From Rostratula benghalensis (lineage: Eukaryota > Chordata > Aves > Charadriiformes > Rostratulidae), in contig VXAI01000165.1 of assembly GCA_013399305.1 (NCBI GenBank), positions 1,025,146 to 1,089,145 of the forward strand: 64,000 nt of DNA, given 5' to 3'. Positions 51,927-64,000 of this stretch are shown here, one piece after another. The position numbers and the translations under genes are program-made. The stretch's first letter is position 1. Each line of letters begins with the position of its first letter. A model generated the notes under the pieces. That model made no database searches and had not been told where the DNA came from. It saw nothing but the letters and a program-made list of their open reading frames with translations.

Positions 51927-52011
51927 AAAAAAAAAAAAAAAAAAAAAATTTTAAAAAATCAAACTGTTTCNAAAAAAAAAAAAATTTTTTTTTTTTTTTT
52001 TTTTCTGTTTC
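51927..52011. other. Contig join at a single N, with duplicated overlap
   Basis: Left of N (51971): an A run (51927-51948), then TTTTAAAAAATCAAA and CTGTTTC. Right of N: an A run (51972-51984), a 20-T block (51985-52004), then CTGTTTC at 52005. If the T block stands for five A plus TTTTAAAAAATCAAA (20 bases), the right side repeats the left side. This suggests an unmerged overlap of two contigs whose second copy was overwritten by T. Confidence 0.7.
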
Positions 52012-52358
52012 ACGCTAGTTTCAAAGGAGGCGAGTTTTCATTTTTTTTTTTTTTTTTTTTACAATCTGGGTCTAAAGCTTGGTCCCTTCTGGTTCTTTTT
52101 TTTTTTTTTTTTTTTTCTTCTACCAAAAACCAGTAGCCCATGACTGACGGTGTTTTTTTTTTTTTTTTTTTTACTTTTTTTTTGGTTTTCCTTACTGAAT
52201 GCAAAGCTTTTTTTTTTTTTTTTTTTTTTTGGTGAGAATGGAGATTAATTGTTTTTAGAATGAATTTTTTTTTTTTTTTTTTTTCTCCATTTGATATGAG
52301 CTGAGGTGATTACAGAGTGGTTTTTTTTTTTTTTTTTTTTGTGGGCAAGCTGTCTTAC

Positions 52359-52404
<46 letters not shown>

Positions 52405-52900
52405 TATGAAGGAGACACTTGTGACTCTCCACTTTTTTTTTTTTTTTTTTTTGCCAATTAGGGTCAATCAGGTTCAACCAGGCTGAAATCAGTAGTTTCA
52501 CCAGCTGAATACCAAGTTGCGTCTGCTGAGGTTCAGTATTCAGCTTTTTTTTTTTTTTTTTTTTAGCACATTAATTAATCTGGAGAGATCCAATCAATGC
52601 TTTTTTTTTTTTTTTTTTTTCTGTGATACCTTTCTTTGGCCACCTGAACTCACCAGTTTTTTTTTTTTTTTTTTTTTAGCTCCTCCTGTCATTTCAGACT
52701 TTCCAGCAATTGTTTTTTTTTTTTTTTTTTTTCAGTCTGACACCTGAATCACATGCTACTCAAGTGACTTTTTTTTTTTTTTTTTTTTGGTCAAGTGAGG
52801 AGTGGTTTTAGGTGTAGATCAGCATTTTTTTTTTTTTTTTTTTTCACTGGCTTCCATCTGATGAACTGGTTCAATGCAGTTTTTTTTTTTTTTTTTTTTT

Positions 52901-52979
52901 GGCAGTGTTAGGTTAATGGTTGGACTCGAAGATCTTTTTTTTTTTTTTTTTTTTTTATAACTTTGTGATTCTATGATTT
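52901..52979 (+). repeat. CR1 LINE 3' tail overwritten by one T block
   Basis: GGCAGTGTTAGGTTAATGGT, TGGACTCGAAGATC, then T20 from 52937, then ATAACTTTGTGATTCTATGA. The missing middle corresponds to the usual AAGGTCTTTTCCAACC block. Confidence 0.85.
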
Positions 52980-53236
52980 CATGTTGATACACTTTTTTTT
53001 TTTTTTTTTTTTACCGCTGATGGTTCTGGAAATGTCATGTTGGTAATGTTTTTTTTTTTTTTTTTTTTCATGACTGACACACCTCCAGGGAACTGCAAAA
53101 GGTCTTTTTTTTTTTTTTTTTTTTTTGCTGTTGTCTGGTTGAGAACCCATGGGCAGAGCATTTTTTTTTTTTTTTTTTTTGAGTAGTTGAAGGCCCTTAC
53201 TGTGCACCTGAATTAATTTTTTTTTTTTTTTTTTTT

Positions 53237-60465: not shown

Positions 60466-62868
60466 GCAAAGACAGGATGAAGAAGAAGCACATGAATTTT
60501 TTTTTTTTTTTTTTTTGTTGGTGAGGATCTCAAAACCTCTGCTTTGCTCAATTTTTTTTTTTTTTTTTTTTTTTGCAGCACACATTTATGCAATACATTC
60601 TCACAGTTTTTTTTTTTTTTTTTTTTTTTGGTCAGATTGCCAAGATGGTCTCCCTACATGCTGTTTTTTTTTTTTTTTTTTTTTATCTCTTCAACTTTGG
60701 GGATAGCCAAGGAAATACCCTTTTTTTTTTTTTTTTTTTTGTGCAATACCTTTCTTGCTCCTTTGTGTTGAGCATCTTTTTTTTTTTTTTTTTTTTGGAA
60801 ACAAAATAAATCTCAAAAAGACTCAGAAAGGTTTTTTTTTTTTTTTTTTTTTAGGGGGAACCCACTAACCCAAAGGCAAGGGCTTCCTTGACCCTCTGTC
60901 TGTGTCCCACTCACTTGTGGTAACACCAAGTTGTGAGGCTCTTTTTTTTTTTTTTTTTTTTTTTAACCAACTCCAACATGAGGGCCAAATCTTCAGCCAG
61001 TTTTTTTTTTTTTTTTTTTTACATCGAGAGCTATAAAGCGTCTGGGGTCTAGGCTCTTTTTTTTTTTTTTTTTTTTCTGGAAAAGACCTAGGAGAATTTT
61101 GATCCATTTGTCTTTTTTTTTTTTTTTTTTTTCTCACAGTGACGTTCTCTTGGTCCTCCCTATCTTATTTTTTTTTTTTTTTTTTTTTCCCCAAGGTGCT
61201 TTTTGGGGGGATTCTTTTCAGCTATTTTTTTTTTTTTTTTTTTTACAGATGAACACAGCAGAGTCAGTAGCCGGGAAACAAATCAAGCTCCTTAGGTGTG
61301 GAAGCACAAGTTTGGACCCCCCGCACCCCATGAATGTTTTTTTTTTTTTTTTTTTTTTTTGCCCTAGAAGCAAATACCATTCCTTCCCCACATTTTTTTT
61401 TTTTTTTTTTTTAGTGATTTTCCTTAGATTTTTGAAAATGGTCCATCTTTTTTTTTTTTTTTTTTTTTTTTCCTCACGTTACGGCTTGGCATTGAGTGCT
61501 CCAGTTTTTTTTTTTTTTTTTTTTAGACAGCCTTTATTGTTTTTCAGCATTGTAAAGATATTTTTTTTTTTTTTTTTTTTTCCACCCACTGCTAACCTTT
61601 CTGAGGGCATGAAGTGTTTTTTTTTTTTTTTTTTTTCAGGCAATGGGGAAAGAAGCTGTCTTTTCTTCTCTGTTTTTTTTTTTTTTTTTTTTATCTATCT
61701 ATGGCATTCAGATGAAAACCTGTGCCAAGCTGTGTTGGCTTTGGGGCAATGGGGGCTTCAACATTCAGTCCTTGCTGCTTGTGTTTTTTTTTTTTTTTTT
61801 TTTTGGATCCAGCTCTTATTGGGGTGAAGGAGTGAGGACTTGTGGTGATTCACATGGACTGAAAGAGCGTTGGGCCAGAAGAGATATGGGAATGCTTTTT
61901 TTTTTTTTTTTTTTTTAAATTGCCTTAGGAAGTCTGCACATGAAAGTGTGATTTTTTTTTTTTTTTTTTTTTGTGGGTATGACAAGGAATGTAAGGGAAA
62001 ACCAGAGGTTTTTTTTTTTTTTTTTTTTTTGGGCTCCATATCTTAATCAATACTCAATTTTGGCTTTTTTTTTTTTTTTTTTTTCTGAAACAACCCAAAG
62101 TGTTTCATTCTCAGGCACAATTTTTTTTTTTTTTTTTTTTCAAGGGCAACTTTCTGGTGACCCCATTGTATGGAGCTTTTTTTTTTTTTTTTTTTTACTG
62201 AAATTCAAAACAAAGAAAACTTGACAGCAGGATTTTTTTTTTTTTTTTTTTTATCTCCCCCTGGAAATTGCCTGAAGGACAAACTGAGTTTTTTTTTTTT
62301 TTTTTTTTCCTGAGCTGACAGTCTGCATTGAGGCTGCTGCTTTTTTTTTTTTTTTTTTTTTTTTTTTGAAAACATCAGAAGCCAAGTCTTGAGTTTGTGC
62401 TTTTTTTTTTTTTTTTTTTTACTGTTGCTGAAGTACACTGATATTTTTTTTTTCCCTTTTTTTTTTTTTTTTTTTTCATTTGGAGAGGCAGACACAATTT
62501 TGGATACCTGTCTTTTTTTTTTTTTTTTTTTTCAGTTCTTTGCAGCCCAGTTTTCTTTTGTAGGTTTGTTTTTTTTTTTTTTTTTTTTAGGCATAATTTT
62601 AGATCAATGAATTTCTGCTGCTCATTTTTTTTTTTTTTTTTTTTTGTCCTCTACTCGTGTGGCTACATGACTGCTTCTTTTTTTTTTTTTTTTTTTTTTT
62701 TTCTGAACTGAAATTGTGTAACTGTGTCTGAAAAGATTTTTTTTTTTTTTTTTTTTTGGGGATAAAAGCTCTCACTGCAGGAACAGCAAGCCTTTTTTTT
62801 TTTTTTTTTTTTCATAGCAGCACATGGGCATGCTCATTTCTAGCCTGGTTTTTTTTTTTTTTTTTTTT

Positions 62869-63072
62869 AATACTGGCCTCTTGGTTTGATTTGGAGCTTG
62901 GCTGCTGCCAGGGACCACAGCAGGGTCCTGGTGAAATCCAAAACTGGGTAATGAGAATTTTGTGAGCCACAAAATATGGATGCTGCAGAGCCAGCTGAGC
63001 CTGGGCCCAAGCTGATGGAGGATGTACTGTGGCTGCAGCCCACTGGATCAGCTGTGGCTTTCTGAGCCCTGA
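62869..63072. other. Unaltered stretch with three empty grid slots
   Basis: Unique sequence (slots 62905, 62961 and 63017 empty). No gene recognised. Confidence 0.5.
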
Positions 63073-63708
63073 TTTTTTTTTTTTTTTTTTTTACAAAATG
63101 ATCCCCTGCACTGAGTAAGTGCCAGGCTTTTTTTTTTTTTTTTTTTTTCCCACCAGATGGGCAGAACTGCTGGTTGGGATGGCATTTTTTTTTTTTTTTT
63201 TTTTCCTGCCCTTTTACTGATTTAGTCAGAAATTTGGAATGGGGACCTATTCCACTCCCTTTCACAGTCTCAAGTCACCCAGCTCCTCTTTGCTATTTTT
63301 TTTTTTTTTTTTTTTTATCGCCTCTCCAGATCACTCGTTACCCACCTCTTTCTTTTTTTTTTTTTTTTTTTTAGCCTGGTGAGCCCACGATACATCCCCC
63401 TGGGCCTTTCCTGGCGCCTTCTGATGGCTAAAGGTTTTCCTCCATTCCCTTTGTTTCCACCTGATTTTTTTTTTTTTTTTTTTTACATGGTTTTAATGTG
63501 GTGCATGAAGTAGCCAGGGGTTTTTTTTTTTTTTTTTTTTTGTTTTAGCAATCACATTTGATGATCAAAGCACGAGTTTTTTTTTTTTTTTTTTTTCATA
63601 TAGAGGAGGTTCATTGCTGGCTTCTCCAAACTTTTTTTTTTTTTTTTTTTTTTGTTTTCCAGCTTCATTACACCTTTACTAACTTTGATTTTTTTTTTTT
63701 TTTTTTTT

Positions 63709-63968
63709 TGTCTCCCCTTCCCCTACCCGCCCCCCCCTTTTCCTTTTTTTTTTTTTTTTTTTTTTTTCCTTCTTCTCCTTTTCCCTTTCCCTTCTCCTTC
63801 TTTTTTTTTTTTTTTTTTTTCCTTCCCTTTTCTCCTTCCCTTTTCTTCTCCTTTCCTTTTTTTTTTTTTTTTTTTTTTCTCCTTCCCTTTTCCTCTTCCC
63901 CTTCCCTCTCCCTTTTTTTTTTTTTTTTTTTTCTTCTCCCCTCTCCCTTTCCCTCTTCTTCCCACTAG
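63709..63968 (+). repeat. Polypyrimidine (C/T) low-complexity tract
   Basis: The pieces between T blocks are almost purely C and T here (CCTTCCCTTTTCTCCTTCCC, CTCCCTTTCCCTCTTCTTCC). The underlying sequence is a natural pyrimidine tract of about 250 bases; its true content under the T blocks at 63745, 63801, 63857 and 63913 is unknown. Confidence 0.85.
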
Positions 63969-64000
63969 TTTTTTTTTTTTTTTTTTTTAAAGGGAGTCCT

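Follow-up and report, generated by a model that had tools for sequence, protein, structure and literature searches.

What could set blocks of exactly 20 thymines (T20) into a single register at one end of an avian sequence record, interspersed with sequence that looks ordinary? We examined this question in a 64,000-nucleotide stretch of the Rostratula benghalensis assembly GCA_013399305.1 (VXAI01000165.1, positions 1,025,146 to 1,089,145 of the forward strand), hereafter the window, from the first base of which all positions below are counted. The T20 grid is not a biological feature; it is an error or a mark in a data file, and very probably arose when software overwrote the letters of one assembly contig without changing its length. 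Four observations carry this reading: the register of the blocks is exact, no block is partial, the native sequence runs on across those blocks that could be tested with about 20 bases replaced, and the grid sets in at a single-N join. The first-pass annotation had likewise proposed a computational overwrite or a deliberate mark, a proposal that the replacement tests, the all-or-none blocks and the onset at a contig boundary now support.

Geometry of the T20 grid

All T20 starts between 51985 and 63988 obey 51985 + 56k, with none of the 149 blocks out of phase. A pure T20 fills ~69% of the grid slots, and the other 66 hold ordinary sequence. Period, start and occupancy are as the first-pass annotation had given them, and its observation that the phase is unbroken over empty stretches of 28, 8 and 9 slots holds also for the smaller gaps (a triplet, a pair and 16 isolated slots). 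The pattern T20-N36-T20 matches 143 times in the window, against a maximum of zero in 100 dinucleotide-preserving shuffles. The AT skew in the window falls as low as -0.56.

The blocks are all-or-none. Each of the 66 unfilled slots has at most 11 T among its 20 middle bases, and none of them contains a damaged, near- or partly restored block. From 51985 on, every T run longer than 10 includes a grid block, runs of 21 to 41 being blocks extended by T at their edges; the only block-free runs of at least 8, at 52175 (9), 57892 (9) and 62444 (10), all lie outside the block columns. T stands directly before 43 and directly after 34 of the 149 blocks, similar to the T share of the flanks (0.30). One run, a T36 at 55105-55140, occupies columns 1-36 of its slot, such that a native-looking T16 begins exactly at the slot boundary; this slot-aligned T16 ahead of the block may be coincidental or may itself have been overwritten.

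Table 1 Features of the T20 grid, the contig join and the interrupted repeats, in window coordinates
Feature	Position	Strand	Basis or remark
T20 grid, 56-base slots, block at slot positions 17-36	51985..63988	.	149 of 215 slots filled; shuffles
Longest native stretch in the grid	53349..54952	.	28 empty slots (53369-54936); phase identical afterwards
Single N, read as a contig join	51971	.	first slot with its block entirely downstream opens the grid
Left contig end, overlapping the right contig start	51931..51970	+	exact match with T20 as wildcard
Right contig start: A13, first T20, then 7 bases CTGTTTC, also the last 7 of the left contig	51972..52011	+	
CR1-like 3' end across one T20	56653..56795	+	intact copy 29816-29959 places exactly 20 bases against the block
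CR1-like 3' end, other orientation	53240..53349	+	intact copy 31262-31368 spans the block at 53273 with exactly 20 bases

The sequence between the blocks shows no kinship from one unit to the next. Among the 127 pieces of 36 bases that separate consecutive blocks, in-register identity averaged 0.253 over all pairs, with a maximum of 0.61; eleven twelve-mers are common to two pieces, of which nine are rich in T or pyrimidines and the remaining two come from one shared short word. The pieces are thus all different, as had been noted on first reading, and a tandem repeat, which calls for related units, was rejected.

The choice of slots is uneven. Empty slots are strongly clustered: shuffling gives 92 runs on average, the observed count is 43, and none of 5000 shuffles went so low. 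Filled slots number 0 of 28 in 53369-54936 and 4 of 23 in 56057-57344, versus 145 of 164 elsewhere in the grid. Local composition bears little relation to this choice: the T share of the flanks was 0.299 for filled and 0.263 for empty slots (p 0.04), and five other measures gave p values of 0.09 to 0.92, all unadjusted. The register is exact regardless of sequence content. A replacement driven by content was ruled out, flank composition being hardly different between filled and empty slots.

Upstream of the join there is no comparable order. A phase scan over periods of 30 to 119 covered the seven letter-and-contig sets that contain eight or more runs of length six or above, the first contig, of 1550 bases, being too poor in runs. 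No set had more than 4 runs in a common phase; the same scan downstream placed 106 of 154 T runs in phase at period 56. The natural T run at 37195 had been described as off-grid, which is true of its start, yet the T29 spans grid slot 37201-37220; by our arithmetic, a run of that length covers a grid slot by chance in ~18% of cases.

In its repeats the window resembles avian or near-avian DNA, with many copies of a CR1-type 3' end (next section), a hAT-derived frame and a reverse-transcriptase fragment. The frame at 8896-10962 (+) is open for 688 codons and scores 39.4 bits for DUF4371 and 28.2 bits for the hAT dimerisation domain, both above the Pfam cut-offs; it is predicted to encode a hAT transposase or a domesticated relative. 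The segment 22465-23193 (-) matches RVT_1 at 28.3 bits, slightly below the Pfam cut-off of 29.6, and is a reverse-transcriptase fragment, probably from a LINE. Three of the five frames searched against Pfam had no match, and the window contains no known RNA family at gathering scores.

Native bases replaced by the blocks

Many copies of LINE 3' ends with a ATTCTATGA tail, which we take to be of the CR1 type, are spread through the window, and some are interrupted by grid blocks. To weigh replacement against insertion, we varied the number of unknown bases, L, that each T20 represents between 0 and 40 and scored alignments of the damaged CR1s with ten upstream stretches of the window holding undamaged copies. 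For 56500-56800, the summed score is maximal at exactly L = 20 (1027, versus 931 at L = 0). Six copies score above 100 in this region; the best L is 20 for four of them, 21 for another and 10 for the sixth, which has equal scores at L of 0 and 20. For 53200-53420, the summed score is again maximal at exactly L = 20 (510, versus 394 at 0 and 486 at 11). Three copies exceed a score of 60 here; the best L is 20 for one and 11 for another, and in the remaining copy 11 and 20 are tied. The second block in the CR1-like end of this region, at 53329, is anchored by a single matching base. The third CR1 (60030-60480) is diverged and carries 7 blocks; its summed score peaks at 24 and its one copy above 100 peaks at 23, and we count it as uninformative on exact block length. 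Plain BLAST with the blocks masked or removed did not by itself tell replacement from insertion.

A second estimate of what the blocks replaced comes from the contig ends on either side of the single N that precedes the grid (Table 1). The left contig terminates in A22-TTTTAAAAAATCAAACTGTTTC, and the right one opens with A13, the first T20 and CTGTTTCACGC; with the first T20 as a 20-base wildcard, the two contig ends overlap exactly over 40 positions. Among block lengths of 0 to 40, only 15-24 allow the 7 bases beyond the first block to match. None of 20,000 random left ends taken from the window fitted at a block length of 20, a weak control given that runs of 13 A are rare. We read the first T20 as covering bases of the right contig that had duplicated the left contig's terminus. 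At 51915-51948, close to that terminus, an AATAAA is followed six bases on by the A22, an arrangement resembling the 3' end of a processed copy of a transcript.

The alignments indicate that the blocks take the place of about 20 native bases, and of exactly 20 in the best cases. Length is kept, as judged from the summed peak at 20 in two CR1s and at 24 in the third and from the 15-24 bases allowed by the contig overlap. Extra sequence between contiguous native flanks, the signature expected of an insertion, was favoured by neither of the two informative CR1s, both having lower summed scores at L = 0 than at 20, with one copy tied. T20 insertion, whether of poly-T elements or of retrotransposon poly-A tails, was ruled out by the summed CR1 scores together with the contig overlap.

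The same measurements bear on whether a genuine structure in the DNA, either a tandem array of a T20 unit with diverged 36-base spacers or a series of real insertions, might underlie the grid. The strict period of 56 would suit such an array; the 36-base pieces are unrelated, however, no block shows any substitution or change in length, and replacement of native bases, as opposed to insertion, is shown by the CR1 sums as well as by the overlap of the contig ends. To our knowledge, no process replaces 20 bases at fixed steps, and we regard a real array as so improbable that it can be neglected.

Onset of the grid at a contig join

The single N at 51971, which is missing from the first-pass annotation, is separated from the first block by 13 bases. 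There are 4 N tracts in the 64 kb, and by our arithmetic on these four, a grid onset within 14 bases of an N would arise by coincidence with a probability of ~0.1%. Single-N joins in short-read scaffolds are overlaps left unmerged by scaffolding or gap closing. The window offers a second example at 1551, where ten bases, CCTAAGAAAA, are repeated on either side of a single N with a C17 run nearby and no T grid; this join, too, resembles an unmerged contig overlap. The two joins are alike in this respect. Single-N joins alone make no T blocks, and at 51971 the join marks the start of the T grid.

Within the overwrite reading, we infer that, on balance, the contig beginning at 51972 was altered before or during its joining to the neighbouring contig. 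This staging is favoured because the earliest slot available in the contig is where the grid opens, and because the 40-base overlap, hidden by the first T20, stayed unmerged behind a single N. The unmerged overlap suggests that the overwrite was already present when the contigs were joined; dating by this means is weakened because the join at 1551 also stayed unmerged, over its 10 bases, in the absence of a T grid.

Could the blocks instead have been written at a later point, accidentally or on purpose (as a mark or a test item), into this window or a downstream copy of the file? In favour of this, the grid extends to the last slot of the window, and the stride, the offset (16) and the block length are all multiples of 4 when counted from the window start. 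That no comparable grid was encountered in the viral and prokaryote contig collections described below is also in keeping with a late origin. Under such an origin, however, the onset at the first slot past the single-N join would be mere coincidence in window coordinates, and the succession of filled and empty slots, read as 7 or 8 bits at any offset and in both polarities, gave no ASCII string that was more than 75% printable. We give a later overwrite appreciable weight, short of an even chance. The likelihoods expressed here for the rival accounts, for masking, for a mark and for the best explanation overlap, and they are not to be summed to unity.

Possible causes and consequences

In the overwrite that we favour, 20 native bases would have been turned to T every 56 bases, all-or-nothing, in ~69% of the slots; the 66 untouched slots and their clustering count against this account. 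The likely type of cause would be a fault in buffering or packing, or else a mask, laid at fixed stride, stripped of its meaning. The UCSC 2bit format encodes T as zero; it also writes N as T and keeps the positions of N blocks in a list apart. Were bytes zeroed or that list lost, T runs could therefore result, with length preserved in either case. A 56-base stride would correspond to 14 bytes in this packing, and 20 bases to 5 bytes. Plain packing from the contig start is disfavoured, since the first block begins 13 bases into its contig, which is no byte boundary at 4 bases per byte; counted from the window start, its offset is a multiple of four. We know of no described failure that replaces 5 bytes on a 14-byte stride.

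Masking at a fixed stride would be one specific route, in which 20-base stretches of N were laid down on a 56-base grid in an input sequence and later made T by software incapable of representing N. Blocks that are all-or-none with intact flanks resemble masking, 2bit does write N as T, and the preservation of N at the contig joins fits masking ahead of scaffolding. Against this route, we know of no reason to mask every 56 bases, and the blocks retain no direct trace of N; we consider it rather unlikely.

Turning from masking to intent, we lean towards a program fault over a deliberate mark, as favoured by the contig boundary and by the lack of readable ASCII. A deliberate watermark, in which filled and empty slots would act as symbols, is, in our estimate, highly improbable.

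We also searched for the same pattern in other sequences, using T20-N36-T20-N36-T20 as the query in collections of viral and prokaryote contigs, from which records near the window's own genome were possibly left out. Viral contigs returned no match. Prokaryote genome contigs returned 24 loci, all of them T-rich tracts whose two gaps, 72 letters in total, contain no more than 13 letters other than T. The T-homopolymer tracts of Flavobacterium paronense CECT 8460 (tig00021888) and Algibacter miyuki CECT 8300 (tig00000221_pilon) likewise consist of long T runs and match the pattern; they differ from the present grid in that their gaps are nearly all T, with at most 4 non-T of 72, and no ordinary sequence lies between. 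A second grid with ordinary sequence between its blocks was found in neither the viral nor the prokaryote contigs, and among the literature titles and abstract openings consulted, none describes such a pattern.

For users of this contig, the T20 grid is a data-quality problem: it introduces spurious homopolymers, disrupts the prediction of repeats and genes and makes the composition look falsely T-rich. If the deposited assembly carries the grid, other contigs may carry it too, and T20 starts taken modulo 56 would reveal them.
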